Shown here piece by piece: positions 4,500-37,425 of a stretch of DNA of 64,000 nucleotides. Source of the stretch: a virus. The first letter of the stretch is position 1, and each line of letters begins with the position of its first letter. A model generated the notes under the pieces. That model worked only from the letters and a program-made list of their open reading frames with translations, did not search any database and had not been told where the DNA came from. Where the stretch lies: positions 36,855 through 100,854 of IMG/VR virus record IMGVR_UViG_3300046713_000096; one strand, given 5' to 3'. Both the position numbers and the translations under genes were made by a program.

Positions 4500-4600
4500 G
4501 TGCGTTTTCTCCCTGACCCTTGACAGATCGCGGCATTGCTCGCGGCCCTGCTTTCGCTCGGGTCAAAATTACGTAACGCACGAAGAGTAGCCGGGCGCGT

Positions 4601-5105
4601 TCAGGGCTTGCTATTTCCAGCCGCGAGCGCGTAGGCCGCTTCTTCATTCGCCGATCCGCTGTACGCGTCGTCACCGCGCAGCCACGCGACGACGTTGCCA
4701 CCGAGCATGTACAGCCACGGGGTGACGATCCAAGTCGCAAGACTCACGTGCAGCGGCGCGCCGAACGCGAGGCCGCACAGCGCGAGCACGAAGCCCGTCA
4801 GGCTTGCGCCTTCGTATTGCTTGCAGTGCACGTGTTCGTGCTCTTGCAGCATCGACCACCCTTGCGGGAAGTGGCACCCCCTTCTTGTAGACGATGACGT
4901 GCGGCGCAATCGTGATCGCGACGAACGACCCGAAGAGCTTGTCGACGTCGACGGTCAGCGACCATGGCCCGGTCGCGTTGGGCTTGTGCTCGAATCGCAA
5001 CCCGAGGCCCGACTGAAACGGGGCGAGCAAAATTGCGACAACTGTGGCGAGCACGTCTGCCGGTAGCCCGAACAGATACAGTAGCCAGCTGCGCGCCTTG
5101 ATCAT
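4601..5105 (-). CDS. Membrane protein with HEHVH zinc-protease-like motif, split by a frame change
   Basis: Two open frames join into one sensible protein. The first starts at the ATG at 5105 (GGGGGAAAT upstream) with a hydrophobic N-terminus and reads to VIVYKKG. The second continues with CHFPQGWSMLQEHEHVH, then two hydrophobic segments. The frames meet at a run of five G (plus-strand C 4877-4881); with four G the reading would be continuous. HEHVH fits the zinc-binding HExxH motif. The change could be a sequencing error, an inactivating indel or a programmed +1 shift. Substrate unknown. Confidence 0.6.
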
Positions 5106-5169
5106 ATTTCCCCCGATCTCTGTTCGCGTGAAGCGACTTTTGCCGGTTCGTGAACCCTGCAAGCAAGAA

Positions 5170-5201
5170 GCCCCGGCCCGCGTGGAAGCGCGAACCGGGG
5201 C
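5170..5201 (-). terminator. GC-rich hairpin terminator
   Basis: Inverted repeat GCCCCGG / CCGGGGC extended by CGCG pairing, with a short loop, right after the stop of the upstream minus-strand gene and followed by TTCTTGCTTG. It fits a Rho-independent terminator for the peptidase-like gene. Confidence 0.65.
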
Positions 5202-10009: not shown

Positions 10010-10041
10010 GCAGCGATAGCCTACAAAACAAGAGGTATTTG

Positions 10042-11379
10042 ATGTCGAAAGCACAGGGAAAAGCACCGATCGTCGAGGCCCGCGCACGCGGCACCGTCGA
10101 ATGGCGTCCCGAAAAAGGGGGGCGCTACATTGCCAAGATCAGCGCCCCCGGTGGTCGGCGCGTGTATGAAGAAATGGTCGACGACGATGGGGCCTTTCTG
10201 TTCACCGACAGAGAGAAGGACGAAGACGCGGCCCGTCGATGCGCTGCCGAGTATTCGGCAGCGGTGCGCAACACCGACGCGCCCATGCCCGACCGGCTTC
10301 GGTTCGAAACGACCGTGCGCATGTTCGGCGAAGAGTGGACGTCGGGAAAACTTCTGCTGAAGCACGGCAAGGTCAAACGGCTGAAGGCCAAGAAGTCGGT
10401 CGACGACGACGTGCGCCGACTCGAACAACACGTCTACCCGTACATCGGAACGCTGGCCGTCTCGGCCGTGACTGAGCAGCACATCGAACAAGCTTTCGCG
10501 AAGGCATGGGTCGCCTTCGAAAAGCGATACGGCTACGAGCCTTCATCTGGTACGCGACGTCAGGTGTACATGGTGACGCACCGGCTCTTCGACCTGTCGG
10601 TCAGGCCCGGGCGCTTGCGCAAAGACAACCCGGTCGACATCGGGCTCTTGCCCGAGCCCGATCCCGAGAAGCTCTACAGCTATTTGTACCCGAGCGAGCT
10701 TTTGATGTTGCTGAAGTGCGTCGAGATCCCGATCGAGCGTCGCGTTTACTACGCGCTCGCGACGTACACCGGCCTGCGCAAGGGCTCGATCCTTGTCGCG
10801 TCGAAAAGGAAACGGGGCAACGCGAACGAAGACGATAACCTGATCAAGCGCTACCTGTGGTCGTCGATCGACCTCGAACACTCGACCGTGCTCAGCTTGA
10901 TCAACAAGAACGGCAGACCACAACTTTTCGATCAGCTCGACGACACACTGCCCGGGCTCGGCTCGCTGATCGAGTTGCTTCGTCGCTGGCGTGAATACAG
11001 CGGATGGCCACCTGACTCGGCACCGATCATCGAGACGCTTCACTGTCGACGACGCAACGAAGCCGCGACGCTTCGACAAGATCTGCTCGTCGCTGGCGTC
11101 ACGCGCGGCATACTCTTCTCGAACACCGACGAGATCCAAGCGCTGCGCTTTCACGACTTGCGCGCGACGTTCGTCACGTGGGCAAAGCGCGCAGGCAAAC
11201 ACGACGGCTGGATCAAGCATCGGACCGGCCACATCACCGACACGATCATGGAACGATACAACCGCGCAGCGAGCAACGTCAGCGAGCTGCGCATGAAGCC
11301 CGGCCCGTTCCCTGACATCTCGCTTGCGATTCCCGAGCTCGTCGACGTCAACGTGACTCGGCTGAAGCGTCGACGCTAG
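10042..11379 (+). CDS. int: Tyrosine recombinase integrase
   Basis: This enzyme integrates and excises the phage at attB/attP. About 445 residues, with an N-terminal arm-binding region, a core-binding domain (about 85-190) and a C-terminal catalytic domain. Catalytic residues visible are Arg in YTGLRKG, His and Arg in RFHDLRATF, His in RTGHITD and Tyr in MERYNR. ATG 10042 with AGAGG upstream is preferred over the TTG before it. It ends in a CTAG shared with the convergent excisionase-like gene. The attP core and arm repeats lie just upstream. Confidence 0.95.
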   Translation: MSKAQGKAPIVEARARGTVEWRPEKGGRYIAKISAPGGRRVYEEMVDDDGAFLFTDREKDEDAARRCAAEYSAAVRNTDAPMPDRLRFETTVRMFGEEWTSGKLLLKHGKVKRLKAKKSVDDDVRRLEQHVYPYIGTLAVSAVTEQHIEQAFAKAWVAFEKRYGYEPSSGTRRQVYMVTHRLFDLSVRPGRLRKDNPVDIGLLPEPDPEKLYSYLYPSELLMLLKCVEIPIERRVYYALATYTGLRKGSILVASKRKRGNANEDDNLIKRYLWSSIDLEHSTVLSLINKNGRPQLFDQLDDTLPGLGSLIELLRRWREYSGWPPDSAPIIETLHCRRRNEAATLRQDLLVAGVTRGILFSNTDEIQALRFHDLRATFVTWAKRAGKHDGWIKHRTGHITDTIMERYNRAASNVSELRMKPGPFPDISLAIPELVDVNVTRLKRRR

Positions 11380-13994: not shown

Positions 13995-14714
13995 TCATGA
14001 GCACAACCTCTTGATCACGTGACCCACGACCTCGCCGCATTTCGGCACAACCGCATTGCCTAGCGCTTTACGGCGCGACGAAGGCTTGTCCAATCTTCCG
14101 GAAAGCCCATGAACCACTCGCACCATCTTGGGTTCAGCGGCCCGCCAGCAATCGCCTGAAGCGACAAGCGAATCTTTCCAACGCGACCCGCCGCCCCCCC
14201 CCTGTTCGAACCGTACGATTGAGCTGTTAGCGTGGGCAGCAATGATGAAGACGCGAGCGCGCCTATGTTTCGCGCCAACATATCGCGCCGCAATCGGGAT
14301 CGGTAGACACGCATAGCCGTCCCGTGCCAGGGCCCTGCATACAGCGTCGACCCACTTACGCGCGCCGCTGGCGACATTTTCCACCACGACCCACGACGGG
14401 CGAAGCTCTTGAACGATTCGTCGGAACTCAACCCATAAGCCGCTTTTAGAACCAGCAAGGCCAGCGCGCTTGCCGACGCTGCTGATGTCTTGACACGGGA
14501 ATCCGCCACAGATGAGATCGACTCGCGCGAGGTTCTTTTTGCCGACTGTTTTGACATTTCTGTATCTCTCAACGTCTGGCCAACGTCGAGCAAGAACCGC
14601 TCGGCAGTAGGCGTCTCGCTCGACCTGCCACACTGTTTCGCCGATGCCGGCGCGTTCTAGCCCCAATTCGAGCCCGCCGACGCCCGAAAACAACGACCCG
14701 ATCTTCATCGTCAT
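13995..14714 (-). CDS. C5 cytosine DNA methyltransferase
   Basis: Transfers methyl from SAM to cytosine C5. Motif I SLFSGVGGLELGL, motif IV GGFPCQDIS with catalytic Cys, motif VI VVENVAS, motif VIII KHRRARVFIIA and motif X RKALGNAVVP are all visible in 239 residues, so the enzyme looks complete with a short target-recognition region. No restriction partner is nearby: an orphan, probably protecting phage DNA. A second long frame (14060-14593) over the same DNA also reads plausibly; see findings. The start overlaps the previous stop (ATGA). Confidence 0.92.
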   Translation of the reverse strand: MTMKIGSLFSGVGGLELGLERAGIGETVWQVERDAYCRAVLARRWPDVERYRNVKTVGKKNLARVDLICGGFPCQDISSVGKRAGLAGSKSGLWVEFRRIVQELRPSWVVVENVASGARKWVDAVCRALARDGYACLPIPIAARYVGAKHRRARVFIIAAHANSSIVRFEQGGGGGSRWKDSLVASGDCWRAAEPKMVRVVHGLSGRLDKPSSRRKALGNAVVPKCGEVVGHVIKRLCS

Positions 14715-17448: not shown

Positions 17449-17476
17449 TTGCGTTGAAGCGAACGCCTGCTAGTCT
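17449..17476 (+). promoter_or_regulatory. Phage leaderless promoter, class A
   Basis: AAAAAGTTG then TTGCGTTGAAGCGAA, TAGTCT -10, 7 nt before ATG 17484. Confidence 0.75.
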
Positions 17477-17483
17477 AGTTCTC

Positions 17484-17885
17484 ATGGACGCACGCCGCTT
17501 CATTCTCGCTGGAAACGCAACGTTCACGATCACGAGTGCCAAGTCGGGCACGCGGTTCACGTACAAGATCAAGGCGAAAGAGCTCGACGGCGGCCGCACG
17601 TTGCACTTCGTCTCGGTGCTGACCGGCGACGACAACGAATCCGACTACACGTTTTTGGGAACGATCTTCGAGGGCCGCGAGTTTCGCCACAGCTCGAAGT
17701 CGCGGATCGGTCGCGAGGCCCCTTCGGCGCGCGCCTTCGCTTGGTCGTTCACGCGGATCATGGGCGAGTCGCTGAACGGTCAGGCGACCGTGCACCACGA
17801 AGGCCGGTGCGGACGCTGTGGCCGCAAGCTGACCGTGCCGAGCTCGATTGAACTCGGCCTCGGGCCCGAGTGCGCTGGCGCGTGA
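17484..17885 (+). CDS. DUF6011-like zinc protein
   Basis: 133 residues. A beta-rich N-terminal domain (FILAGNATFTITSAKSGTRF) leads to ARAFAWSFTRIMGE, then EGRCGRCGRKLTVPSSIELG and LGPECAGA, a layout I associate with the DUF6011 C-terminal zinc module. Served by its own class A promoter with a predicted leaderless mRNA. Role unknown. Confidence 0.8.
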   Translation: MDARRFILAGNATFTITSAKSGTRFTYKIKAKELDGGRTLHFVSVLTGDDNESDYTFLGTIFEGREFRHSSKSRIGREAPSARAFAWSFTRIMGESLNGQATVHHEGRCGRCGRKLTVPSSIELGLGPECAGA

Positions 17886-20305: not shown

Positions 20306-20510
20306 CGATCGGAACTACCGAATCGCGCGCGTCGTCGCTGACCTCGTCGTCATCGTCGTCGCCCTTCGCTTTCTTGAGCCAATCGGCAAACGCTTCGATG
20401 TCGATCACGCGCAGCAAGCTCAGCGACGTGTACACGTCACGCGGCATCGTCGCGCCGACGGCGCGCTCGATGCGCCGAAGCGCCTTTTGCTTTTTCGTGT
20501 TCGGTGACAT
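20289..20510 (-). CDS. Small acidic-tail protein
   Basis: 73 residues with a basic N-terminal helix (KKQKALRRIERAV), then a hydrophobic helix and an acidic tail with five Asp in a row. Overlaps the gene upstream by 74 nt in another frame. Function unknown. Confidence 0.55.
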   Translation of the reverse strand: MSPNTKKQKALRRIERAVGATMPRDVYTSLSLLRVIDIEAFADWLKKAKGDDDDDEVSDDARDSVVPIDDFEA

Positions 20511-21072
20511 CTAGCTTGCGACGAAGCGCCTTTCGACCTTGGCGCCAACCGTCGCGCCACAGCTCGTACATGTACAAGTATAGTCCGGCGCTCATCACCG
20601 GGCGACCTTTTACGAGGTACGCGCGAGCCCGCAACGTGCGAACGAACCTCTTGCAGTCTTGCCAGCGCTTGGGGTGGCAATCTGCTTTCGAGGCGTCTGC
20701 GCTGATCTTCGTGCTCTTCTTCATCGCGTCTCGCATTCCCTTGGCTAGGTCGCCCATGTCTTTCGTCTGCTGATCGGGGGTGCCTTCGTCGAGATGGTGC
20801 TCGCCAGCCGAGACGACGCGCACCGCTGCGCGCGCGACGTGGCGCCCGTTCGGGCGCTCAAGACAGACGTGGCGCCCGAGCTGACAGAGATCGCAGGCGC
20901 ACGCCGAAATGACGAAACGTGCTTGACCGGCCAATCCGACTGACTGCCCCATCGCTCGCAACGCCTTGCCCGTGTACATCACCACGGCACCCGGTCGCAG
21001 CTCGCCCGCGAACCGACGAGAGCTCTCGTCGCGCGTGCGCTTCAAGTTCCCTGCATAGGTGTCGGGCTGCAT
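20437..21072 (-). CDS. Hypothetical protein with Cys cluster
   Basis: About 211 residues from an ATG inside the upstream gene end. SACACDLCQLGRHVCLE gives four Cys after a beta region (RPGAVVMYTGK). The C-terminal half is basic and helical. The last 25 codons overlap the next gene, and the Arg-rich tail may be less reliable. Function unknown. Confidence 0.6.
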   Translation of the reverse strand: MQPDTYAGNLKRTRDESSRRFAGELRPGAVVMYTGKALRAMGQSVGLAGQARFVISACACDLCQLGRHVCLERPNGRHVARAAVRVVSAGEHHLDEGTPDQQTKDMGDLAKGMRDAMKKSTKISADASKADCHPKRWQDCKRFVRTLRARAYLVKGRPVMSAGLYLYMYELWRDGWRQGRKALRRKLDVTEHEKAKGASAHRARRRRDDAA

Positions 21073-21503
21073 GCCGCCTTCTTTCGCGCGCGCACCGCGC
21101 GCCGATTGCATTTGACCGAGCAGTAGATCGCGTCGACGCGACGACCCTTCACGCAACGACCACAGACCGAGCATGTGCGAGCCGTCTGCTTTCGAGCCTT
21201 CTTGCGCCGATAGTAAGCCTGCAGCGAAAGGTGTCGAATCCGGCACGCGTCCGAACAATAACGCGTGTTGCCACGGTACGGGCAGAACTGCACCTCGCAC
21301 CCTTTTCGCTTGCAGGTGATCAGGCCCCGACGAAACATGCGCGTGCGAAGAGCGCGCAGCGAATGGCGCCTTTTCGCATCGCGTTTGCGCTCGACGTAGT
21401 CGCTGTGCCGATGCCAGCCGATGGCCCGCAATCGTTCGGCATGATGCGACTGTGCATCGCAGAACACCTCGATCACGTCGGCAGTTAGATCAAGCCATGT
21501 CAT
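21042..21503 (-). CDS. Zinc-finger protein with two Cys modules
   Basis: 153 residues. CKRKGCEVQFCP then YCSDACRIRH forms one module; CSVCGRCVKG then YCSVKCNRR forms a second, like the FCS/YCS fingers of bacterial HTH-associated proteins. Basic throughout, so nucleic-acid binding is likely. The N-terminal half is helical. Confidence 0.65.
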   Translation of the reverse strand: MTWLDLTADVIEVFCDAQSHHAERLRAIGWHRHSDYVERKRDAKRRHSLRALRTRMFRRGLITCKRKGCEVQFCPYRGNTRYCSDACRIRHLSLQAYYRRKKARKQTARTCSVCGRCVKGRRVDAIYCSVKCNRRAVRARKKAACSPTPMQGT

Positions 21504-21953: not shown

Positions 21954-22399
21954 GCTGCACCCTTGTTGTTTTTCACGATGCGAAGATGACCCTTCATCTG
22001 TCGCGCCTGATTGCGATCGGCTTTCGCTTTCGCGTTGGCTCGGTGGCCAGCGTTCGCCAAGATCTCGCGCTGCACTTCGATCGGCGCATCGGGCAACCAC
22101 ACCCGGCCAATGTCTAGCACTGGCGAAGACAGCGCATAGACGAACGGCCACGGGATGCTGCACCACATGCGCAGGCTCGCGCCCTCGCCAAACGACAGAG
22201 TGCCGCTCAGCGCTTCGCTGTCGCACTTCAAGTCATGGATCGGCCGTGGCAGGTCGAAGCCCCATTCGAGCACGAGGCTAGGCGTCGCGCGCAGGTAGCC
22301 CGGCACGACGACTTGTTTCGGGCGCGGATCAAGATGAACTCTCAAGAGGCCGTGACCCATCCAATTGATCGCGATCTCTGACTTGCTCGGCTGATCCAT
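21950..22399 (-). CDS. SspB-like ClpXP adaptor
   Basis: 149 residues. LLRVHLDPRPKQVVVPGYLR, then PSLVLEWGFDLPRPIHDLKC, SGTLSFGEGASLRMWCSIPW and PFVYALSS follow the strand order of SspB-type proteins (LDPR, VP, LVL, DL, LSF, PW). SspB delivers ssrA-tagged and other substrates to ClpXP. The C-terminal tail is basic and could end in a ClpX-binding peptide. A phage copy could redirect host proteolysis. Family assignment is from memory of motif order. Confidence 0.65.
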   Translation of the reverse strand: MDQPSKSEIAINWMGHGLLRVHLDPRPKQVVVPGYLRATPSLVLEWGFDLPRPIHDLKCDSEALSGTLSFGEGASLRMWCSIPWPFVYALSSPVLDIGRVWLPDAPIEVQREILANAGHRANAKAKADRNQARQMKGHLRIVKNNKGAA

Positions 22400-22757
22400 T
22401 GCCGGAAGTACCGGGCGGGCTCGATGGTCGCTGACCGCCCTTCGCGTTCTCGATCAGCTTCGCGTATTCGCTGCCCGAAAAGACCTCGGGCGCCATTGCG
22501 AGCGCGACGACAATCAGGGTGCGGAAGCGCGCAGCCTTCGGCAGCGCCCCGAGGATCGCGGACACGTGCGTCATGGCCTGCAGCTCAAGCACAAGCATTC
22601 CGGGCTCGGCAGCTGGCGGCACGTGCGAGAACAAAGGTGCTTCGAGCACTTTGCGCAGGCGCTCGACGGCCTGACAAAAGGCCATCATGCACAGCTCATC
22701 ACGGAACCTGTGATCGTAGGCCGCGACGACGGCGAGTGCGAGCTCGCGCAAAGTCAC
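22329..22757 (-). CDS. Hypothetical protein, 142 residues
   Basis: Helical; first 95 residues orderly (LRELALAVVAAYDHRF; VLELQAMTHVSAILGALPKA), then a Ser/Gly/Pro tail that overlaps the SspB-like gene by 71 nt. The start overlaps the Acb2-like stop. Function unknown. Confidence 0.6.
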   Translation of the reverse strand: MTLRELALAVVAAYDHRFRDELCMMAFCQAVERLRKVLEAPLFSHVPPAAEPGMLVLELQAMTHVSAILGALPKAARFRTLIVVALAMAPEVFSGSEYAKLIENAKGGQRPSSPPGTSGNGSAEQVRDRDQLDGSRPLESSS

Positions 22758-23086
22758 TTCGCACCTTCTTCTGTCGGTCGAGCGCGCTCGAACTTCCGCT
22801 TGTAGTATTCGCTTTGCACTTCGTGCTCGCAGGCGATCGCTGCGTTCGCGGTCATGAGCGCCTCGCGCACCTTGCGGATCGCTGCCATCTGATCGGCACC
22901 GGGCGGTGTGAACTCTGCAATGTACGTCGCGAGTTGCTTGCTCAGCCGACGAGTCTCTTCGTAGCGCGCTGTTTGGCCCGGTCGTGGCGGATGGTGCATG
23001 AACCAGTTGTCGAGATCGATCGCGTCGACGATCGGAACGAACGGGCGGTCAAGATCACCTTCTTCGGTCGTGTTGCGTGCCTTCAT
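22754..23086 (-). CDS. acb2: Acb2-like anti-CBASS protein (cyclic nucleotide sponge)
   Basis: 110 residues. WFMHHPPRPGQTARYEETRR, then LSKQLATYIAEFTPPGADQM and AIRKVREALMTANAAIACEH align with the conserved core of Acb2: F-x-Y/H-H-P-P, Q-x-x-x-Y, P-x-S/A, and the E-A-V-M-x-A-N-A-A-I-A motif. Known Acb2 proteins are about 95-residue hexamers that bind cyclic di- and trinucleotides made by CBASS and Thoeris systems, protecting the phage. First gene of the minus-strand accessory run, divergent from the operon at 23214. Confidence 0.85.
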   Translation of the reverse strand: MKARNTTEEGDLDRPFVPIVDAIDLDNWFMHHPPRPGQTARYEETRRLSKQLATYIAEFTPPGADQMAAIRKVREALMTANAAIACEHEVQSEYYKRKFERARPTEEGAK

Positions 23087-23213
23087 TGTCAGGGCTCTCG
23101 GTGTTGGGGGTTGCCACATCACTTCCACTAGCTACCCGGTCCGGGCCGCTGTGGCTGAAACTCTCTTGCGGCGCGGTCGGGCCCCGTGCGATACCGAGCC
23201 AGCCAAGAGCTCT

Positions 23214-36627: not shown

Positions 36628-37425
36628 TCACTCTGCCTCGCGCTCGACGCCCACGTCTTCGACGCCCAAGATCGTCGAGGCGCAGTCGCGACCGACCCAC
36701 ATGCTAATCAGGCGCTCGCGACCGCTGCGCCGGTCGGTCATTTCCATCGCGACGAACATGCGCGACGGGATGAACTTGCCGCACACCTGACAGTGGCACG
36801 GCCCTTGAAACCGACTTTGATTGTGCACGATCCCTGCGCTCCACTTCACGCGGTAGCTTTTTTCCATCACAGGCGCGCCGTCACGGTCGAAGGTCAGCTC
36901 GCCCTGTTTGTTGCGCGCCTGCACCATGAACGCCTCGATCTCGGCTGGCTTGATCGTGCTCAAGTCTACGTCGAGGTTACAGTCTTTCAGCGTCGCAGTG
37001 ACCCGCGGGCTCGCGCCGATCGCGGTGATGACCGGGCGGGGTCGCGCGCTCGACAGTGCCGCGAATTCCGTGCTCTTGAGCGTGCACAGGTAGCCCCATG
37101 CTTGCAGCACTTCGAGCGACAGGCCCTTGACCGCGGTCACACCTTGCACGTTGCTGAAGTCGCCTGCGAAGCTTTGGCCGTACATGACGCATCTTTCTTG
37201 CTCGCTCGGATAGGGTAGCCAGCCGCTCAGCTTGCGAAGCTGCGCGCGCGACAGTAGGCCGCTGTAGAATGCCGAGTCGGCGCTCGCGTGCCCGCGCTTG
37301 ATCCAGCTGCCTTGCGCGATGCTCGCGTCCCACACGCGCATGCTCTCTTCGAACTTCGCGAGCTTCGCGCCCTTCAGAAAGCCCTTGATGGTCGCCGTCG
37401 CGGTTTCTTTTGTCATCGTCGTCAT
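36628..37425 (-). CDS. Zinc-binding protein, about 265 residues
   Basis: MTTMTKETATATIKGFLKGA; helical N-terminal half. Near the C-terminus GPCHCQVCGKFIPSR, then MWVGRDCASTILGVED: the CxxCG...MWxGxxCA...GVE layout also seen in the gene at 16137, suggesting homology. Largest product of the leaderless block. Start 6 nt after TAGAAT. Confidence 0.7.
   Translation of the reverse strand: MTTMTKETATATIKGFLKGAKLAKFEESMRVWDASIAQGSWIKRGHASADSAFYSGLLSRAQLRKLSGWLPYPSEQERCVMYGQSFAGDFSNVQGVTAVKGLSLEVLQAWGYLCTLKSTEFAALSSARPRPVITAIGASPRVTATLKDCNLDVDLSTIKPAEIEAFMVQARNKQGELTFDRDGAPVMEKSYRVKWSAGIVHNQSRFQGPCHCQVCGKFIPSRMFVAMEMTDRRSGRERLISMWVGRDCASTILGVEDVGVEREAE

Follow-up and report, generated by a model that had tools for sequence, protein, structure and literature searches.

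Acb2 is reported to sequester the cyclic di- and trinucleotides of CBASS; for Tad1 and Tad2 the ligand is gcADPR, the signal of Thoeris (PMC12043709). Acb2 is built of one short N-terminal helix and two long antiparallel helices, and Tad1 of an N-terminal beta sheet and two helices (PMC12043709). The hairpin family to which both belong is already known and common, and it is very widespread in phages and prophages. In the actinobacteriophage Statler, gp57 has been named a cyclic-nucleotide sequestration protein by similarity, its function being putative. The copies of the actinobacteriophages Xandras and BigBubba are named putative cyclic-nucleotide sequestration proteins, also by similarity, and StellaBean gp101 carries the same feature name, again annotated by similarity.

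Here we describe a gene of this kind, acb2, in a stretch of 64,000 nucleotides (the window) from an uncultured phage, positions 36,855 to 100,854 of IMG/VR record IMGVR_UViG_3300046713_000096.

Results

Gene, strand and translational start

A first-pass annotation had placed an Acb2-like anti-CBASS protein at 22754-23086 without giving the strand. The three strings that it quoted, HHPPRPGQ (residues 31-38), RYEETRR (41-47) and ALMTANAAIACE (76-87), are all present in the minus-strand translation of this region, with ATG 23086 counted as residue 1; this numbering is used throughout. The ORF is real and its coordinates hold, but conservation indicates that ATG 23086 is internal and that the true start lies slightly upstream. 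The product shares 53-63% identity with those of sister phages, and the homology reaches upstream of 23086, with extended N-termini reading MWQPP... in the window, MTWKPP... in phage L002 (IMGVR 3300043353) and MKWT... in phage L011. The start is preceded by GGTAGCTA and a few bases in the window and in L002, and by GGTAACTA in L011. Because the sister-phage homology passes ATG 23086 and the GGTA(G/A)CTA box lies just upstream, translation most likely starts at ATG 23119 or GTG 23122, which would give a product of 121-122 amino acids (Table 1). A sigma-70 promoter scan of the gap upstream of acb2 gave no match.

Table 1. Features at the acb2 locus, in window coordinates
Feature	Position	Strand	Basis or remark
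Acb2/Tad1-hairpin protein gene (acb2)	22754..23119	-	start ATG 23119 or GTG 23122 (most likely); PF24729, PHROG 1454, sister-phage homology
Box GGTAGCTA	23129..23136	-	just upstream of acb2 start; GGTA(G/A)CTA in sister phages
PF24729 hairpin domain	22829..22996	-	residues 31-86, hmmscan envelope
His31 codon CAC	22994..22996	-	equivalent of T4 Acb2 Tyr8/PaP2 Tyr11; Tyr in most relatives
Arg46 codon	22949..22951	-	equivalent of PaP2 Lys26/T4 Lys23
Predicted short N-terminal helix	23003..23023	-	residues 22-28, AlphaFold2
Predicted long hairpin helix 1	22910..22972	-	residues 39-59, AlphaFold2
Predicted long hairpin helix 2	22832..22897	-	residues 64-85, AlphaFold2; subtype positions 64, 71 and 79, with 86 just past its end
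Predicted extra C-terminal helix	22781..22819	-	residues 90-102, AlphaFold2 and alignments; absent from most short relatives
Next leftward gene	22329..22757	-	start overlaps acb2 end by 4 bases; conserved in sister phages; no Pfam or PHROG match

Family membership and distribution

An HMM search, by which the first-pass annotation had proposed to check its reading, matched the product to PF24729 (Acb2/Tad1 hairpin) with 44.2 bits against a curated cut-off of 27 (E = 2.2e-11), covering profile positions 2-58 of 58. T4 Acb2 (Vs.4) matches PF24729 over the same profile positions. PHROG 1454 (E = 7e-16) and PHROG 31113 were also matched, both labelled 'unknown function'. PF24729 occurs once in the 100,854-base record and in none of 14 control genomes. 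In an alignment of the window protein with 74 IMG/VR relatives (75 sequences, hereafter A2) it is the sole family matched by the members (75/75). By sequence, the window protein is assigned to the Acb2/Tad1 hairpin family.

The A2 profile reached 'Acb2 homolog 43' (9ptq) in the PDB at E = 0.003 and Tad1 chains weakly, at E about 0.3; a single relative of the R-T-W-R subtype (see below) matched 9ptq at E = 5e-4. Comparison of the A2 profile with the single T4 or PaP2 sequences was weak, with the T4 columns consistent with the MAFFT mapping described below. A phmmer search of the PDB with the window protein gave only chance matches, the best being influenza haemagglutinin (E = 0.19), and an NCBIfam search with the same protein gave no match. 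The designation 'Acb2-like' is upheld at the level of the family, by Pfam and by an Acb2-like helical model. The quoted strings, put forward as conserved motifs of Acb2, are instead hallmarks of the wider hairpin family; at their place the characterised Acb2 proteins read GYKPHTEEKI (T4) and GYRDLSQEEI (PaP2).

Scans for relatives were seeded by motifs. A one-motif scan of IMG/VR yielded 361 confirmed relatives, and cultured-phage records numbered 322 for the R-T-W-R query and 112 for the A-R-T query. GTDB genomes contributed 54 hairpin-gene loci. Some hairpin copies bear the GenBank names 'phosphomannomutase' or 'tail assembly protein', as in Paenibacillus and Brevibacillus phages (for example KT151955 Jenst and NC_028837 Xenia) and cyanophage S-2L (MW334946); these are probably mis-annotations. 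In a 211 kb record (IMGVR 3300017991_000001, positions 4533-5195) the hairpin domain is C-terminal in a 220-aa ORF whose N-terminal part is unrelated, possibly a fusion.

Predicted structure

The AlphaFold2 model, computed from the 75 sequences, has a mean pLDDT of 85.6 and contains four helices (Table 1) and no strand. Since helices without strands fit the description of Acb2 cited above, the modelled architecture is of the Acb2 type. In a Foldseek search of viral structures the best matches were Acb2/Tad1-hairpin proteins with a probability of about 1.0, with E-values not down to 0.001. Among PDB structures, Foldseek found none with E < 0.001; no Acb2 chain is among the matches listed, an absence that carries no weight. 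Small helical bundles gave middling background, and the lack of specificity in these fold matches is what a short helical hairpin would lead one to expect. They include CbTad1 (8kbf), superimposed on model residues 40-96 (Z 4.6, rmsd 4.6, 55 residues).

Pocket residues

Pocket positions were mapped in two independent ways, by Pfam profile positions and by a MAFFT --add alignment, and the results agree. Position 2 of the PF24729 profile corresponds to T4 Tyr8 and to His31 of the window protein. The alignment likewise placed T4 Tyr8 and PaP2 Tyr11 on column 31, and T4 Lys23 and PaP2 Lys26 on column 46, at an equal spacing of 15 residues. PaP2 Lys26 is the basic residue of the cyclic-dinucleotide pocket. 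Column 46 holds arginine in 135 of 136 sequences, and Arg46 in place of lysine is a conservative change. PaP2 Arg67 is the arginine of the trinucleotide site; the window protein has Ala64 at its place, and in the alignment T4 Acb2 likewise has no arginine there.

At column 31, tyrosine is found in 125 and histidine in 10 of the 136 sequences, and at least eight Tyr/His changes are placed on the tree, so histidine appears to be tolerated repeatedly at this position. The three sister phages carry tyrosine, the window copy histidine. According to the literature, the exchange Y8A in T4 Acb2 abolishes or disrupts dinucleotide binding, and Phe82 of T4 Acb2 stacks on the ligand. His31 could confer weaker or altered binding on the window copy. 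A mutation in T2 Acb2 probably disrupts a similar kind of site under Panoptes pressure (PMC12657218), and a connection of His31 with that case is speculation.

Helix-2 subtypes

Columns 64, 71, 79 and 86 divide the 136 sequences into R-T-W-R (56), A/P/Q/S-R-T-C/L/I (63) and mixed combinations (17); the window protein reads A-R-T-C. The hairpin protein of Tunturiibacter phage Tunturi_1 is likewise of the A-R-T type. Pairwise correlations among the four positions range from 0.78 to 0.93, and because of their 7-8-7 spacing they would lie on one face of helix 2. Threonine at 71 is shared by Tad1 (SRENACALTHVEEALMW), 9ptq and T4, and tryptophan at 79 by Tad1 and T4. At its presumed binding face the window copy's subtype, a common one, is unlike all members so far studied; R-T-W-R stands there in most other relatives and, in part, in the solved sponges.

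Proteins of the A/P64-R71-T79-C/L/I86 subtype, with His31 in the window copy, might be sponges with altered or non-CBASS specificity, holding a ligand unlike those of characterised Acb2 and Tad1, such as another cyclic dinucleotide isomer, TIR-derived ADP-ribose or cOA. The joint difference of four helix-2 face positions between two large groups points this way, as does the alignment of T4 Thr68 with Arg71 of the window protein, T68M being reported to lower binding by T4 Acb2 (PMC12657230). The hosts differ as well: the 13 A/P-R-T genome loci are spread over seven phyla (Planctomycetota, Acidobacteriota, Myxococcota, Calditrichota, Chloroflexota, Pseudomonadota, and one Geobacteraceae MAG) with none in Bacillota, and the R-T-W-R loci are mostly from Bacillota. 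However, host phylum is confounded with clade, the scans were seeded by motifs, the assignment of phage contigs to MAGs is prone to error, and 17 of the 136 sequences are mixed. A tree built without the four columns, poorly supported with its 60 columns, requires only two changes between the clear types. Repeated covariation of the helix-2 positions was rejected on this count, and the contrast between R-T-W-R and A/P-R-T seems close to one old split. We therefore rate altered specificity as possible but unlikely. The same doubtful standing applies to the broader proposal that A/P64-R71-T79-C/L/I86 proteins in phages and prophages of Planctomycetota, Acidobacteriota, Myxococcota and others form a distinct class of sponge for a different immune nucleotide.

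A search of 45 host genomes for SMODS, the CBASS cyclase, gave five positives, too few for linking subtype to host defence. In the L102 genome, an uncultured Acidobacteria MAG, one contig carries three matches to the SMODS cyclase in a span of about 2.5 kb.

Gene neighbourhood

In the window, acb2 is the first gene of a leftward run of small genes, a place conserved in four related phages, and gene order across 17.1-25.7 kb is largely shared with L002/L009, L010 and L011. When 20 nearby or reference proteins were searched against Pfam, the notable matches were confined to a C5 DNA methyltransferase, DUF1643, DUF6011, a DnaE-like polymerase and, below cut-off, an integrase; PHROGs added nothing except families without known function and the methyltransferase. 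Among the tested neighbours of acb2, neither Pfam nor PHROGs gave a match to an anti-defence family. The DNA methyltransferase named in the first-pass annotation is thus present as a C5 enzyme. The suggestion drawn from it, that an accessory region at 12-23 kb is rich in counter-defence genes, is not supported: with gene order largely kept in the three sister phages, and no anti-defence match among the genes tested, the region appears as a conserved gene run rather than a demonstrated counter-defence island.

A scan with the product of 22332-22757 gave no relative, and one with the 20440-21300 product led only to the L010 phage, already known. The small DUF6011 phage protein encoded at 17454-17885 on the plus strand is strongly conserved; a scan with it gave 135 confirmed IMG/VR relatives in many unrelated contexts, mostly at loci without acb2. 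The C5 methyltransferase ORF (13995-14714, minus strand; PF00145, PHROG 363) encloses an ORF in another frame (14060-14593, minus strand) with matches of its own to PHROG 'DNA methyltransferase' profiles (phrog_1008, E = 1e-10); these may be nested overlapping genes, or the second match an annotation echo in PHROGs. The plus-strand gene at 10039-11379, a tyrosine-recombinase-type integrase with a weak match to PF22022 and one below cut-off to PF00589, suggests that the window phage is temperate.

In the wider family, genes for packaging and the head are often its neighbours. With gene names assigned by PHROGs, at least 41 of 130 relatives have the hairpin gene close to genes for terminase, portal, head protease, scaffold or capsid, nearly always on the same strand, with terminase - hairpin gene - portal - capsid as a repeated arrangement. 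At six loci (L019, L024, L027, L038, L045 and L050) the hairpin gene lies between terminase/portal and capsid within a packaging and head module, and next to it in mycobacteriophages of cluster E is a gene for a ClpP-like protease. Such positions would suit a small virion, packaging or regulatory protein with no more than the helical hairpin in common with the sponges. We consider this improbable for the window protein: here and in the sister phages acb2 heads a run of small genes without known function, Tyr/His31 and Arg46, which align with nucleotide-binding positions of Acb2, are among the most conserved residues of the family, and the characterised members of PF24729 (Acb2 and Tad1) are sponges.

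Discussion

Taken together, these analyses make it probable that the window protein, a member of the Acb2/Tad1-hairpin family with a predicted architecture of the Acb2 type, is a cyclic-nucleotide sponge that sequesters immune nucleotides. The PF24729 match, the predicted fold and the near-invariance of Arg46 speak for this function. Weighing against it are His31 in place of Tyr8/Tyr11, helix-2 positions unlike R-T-W-R, the Foldseek search of the PDB with nothing at E < 0.001, and the weak profile comparison with T4 and PaP2. The head/packaging location of at least 41 of 130 relatives is also unexpected for an early counter-defence gene.

In a sponge of this kind, the hairpin protomers would form a ring-like oligomer, which in Acb2 and Tad1 is a hexamer. 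This oligomer would bind an immune signal that the infected host produces, a cyclic di- or trinucleotide, and would hold it uncut, so that the defence effector would stay off. The first-pass annotation had ascribed to Acb2 the sequestration of the cyclic nucleotides of both CBASS and Thoeris. This is correct for the CBASS di- and trinucleotides and too broad for Thoeris, since gcADPR is the ligand of Tad1 and Tad2 (PMC12043709). That the window protein is itself a Tad1-type anti-Thoeris sponge is very improbable: one Pfam hairpin model does cover Acb2 and Tad1, and the stretch 'SRE...ALT..EEALMW' is common to Tad1 and R-T-W-R relatives, but the protein has about 20 residues and then a short helix where Tad1 has its N-terminal beta sheet, and no strand is predicted.

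The assignment of the window protein as a probable sponge extends the Acb2/Tad1 family to an uncultured soil-type phage with almost no annotated neighbours. It also draws attention to a large subtype that soil-type phages commonly carry and that, at the face of helix 2, appears unlike the solved sponges. The contrast between A/P-R-T and R-T-W-R bears on whether phages of poorly studied phyla face different nucleotide signals.

Comparison with known systems

The characterised Acb2 proteins (T4 Vs.4, PDB 7uq2; Pseudomonas phage PaP2 p26, PDB 8h2j) share with the window protein the Pfam hairpin family, the small size and, as far as the model goes, a short N-terminal helix and two long antiparallel helices. 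At the K23/K26 place both have a basic residue, Arg46 in the window protein. Identity between them is below direct detection by phmmer, and the window protein has an FxYHxP..Q..Y...R motif where the T4 and PaP2 strings given above stand in Acb2. It further differs from Acb2 in His31 for Tyr8/Tyr11, in Arg71 for T4 Thr68 and in the predicted extra C-terminal helix. Tad1 (CbTad1; PDB 7uav, 8smd and 8kbf) has the helical hairpin in common with the window protein, whose N-terminal part, in contrast to the antiparallel beta sheet of Tad1, is without a strand in the model and too short for four strands. By sequence profile, Acb2 homolog 43 (9ptq) is the closest solved structure; its helix 2 is of the R..T type (GREKSVFKTKLEEAMFFA), whereas that of the window protein is A/P-R-T. 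The putative Acb2 proteins of Statler, Xandras, BigBubba and StellaBean resemble the window protein in being identified as cyclic-nucleotide sequestration proteins by similarity.
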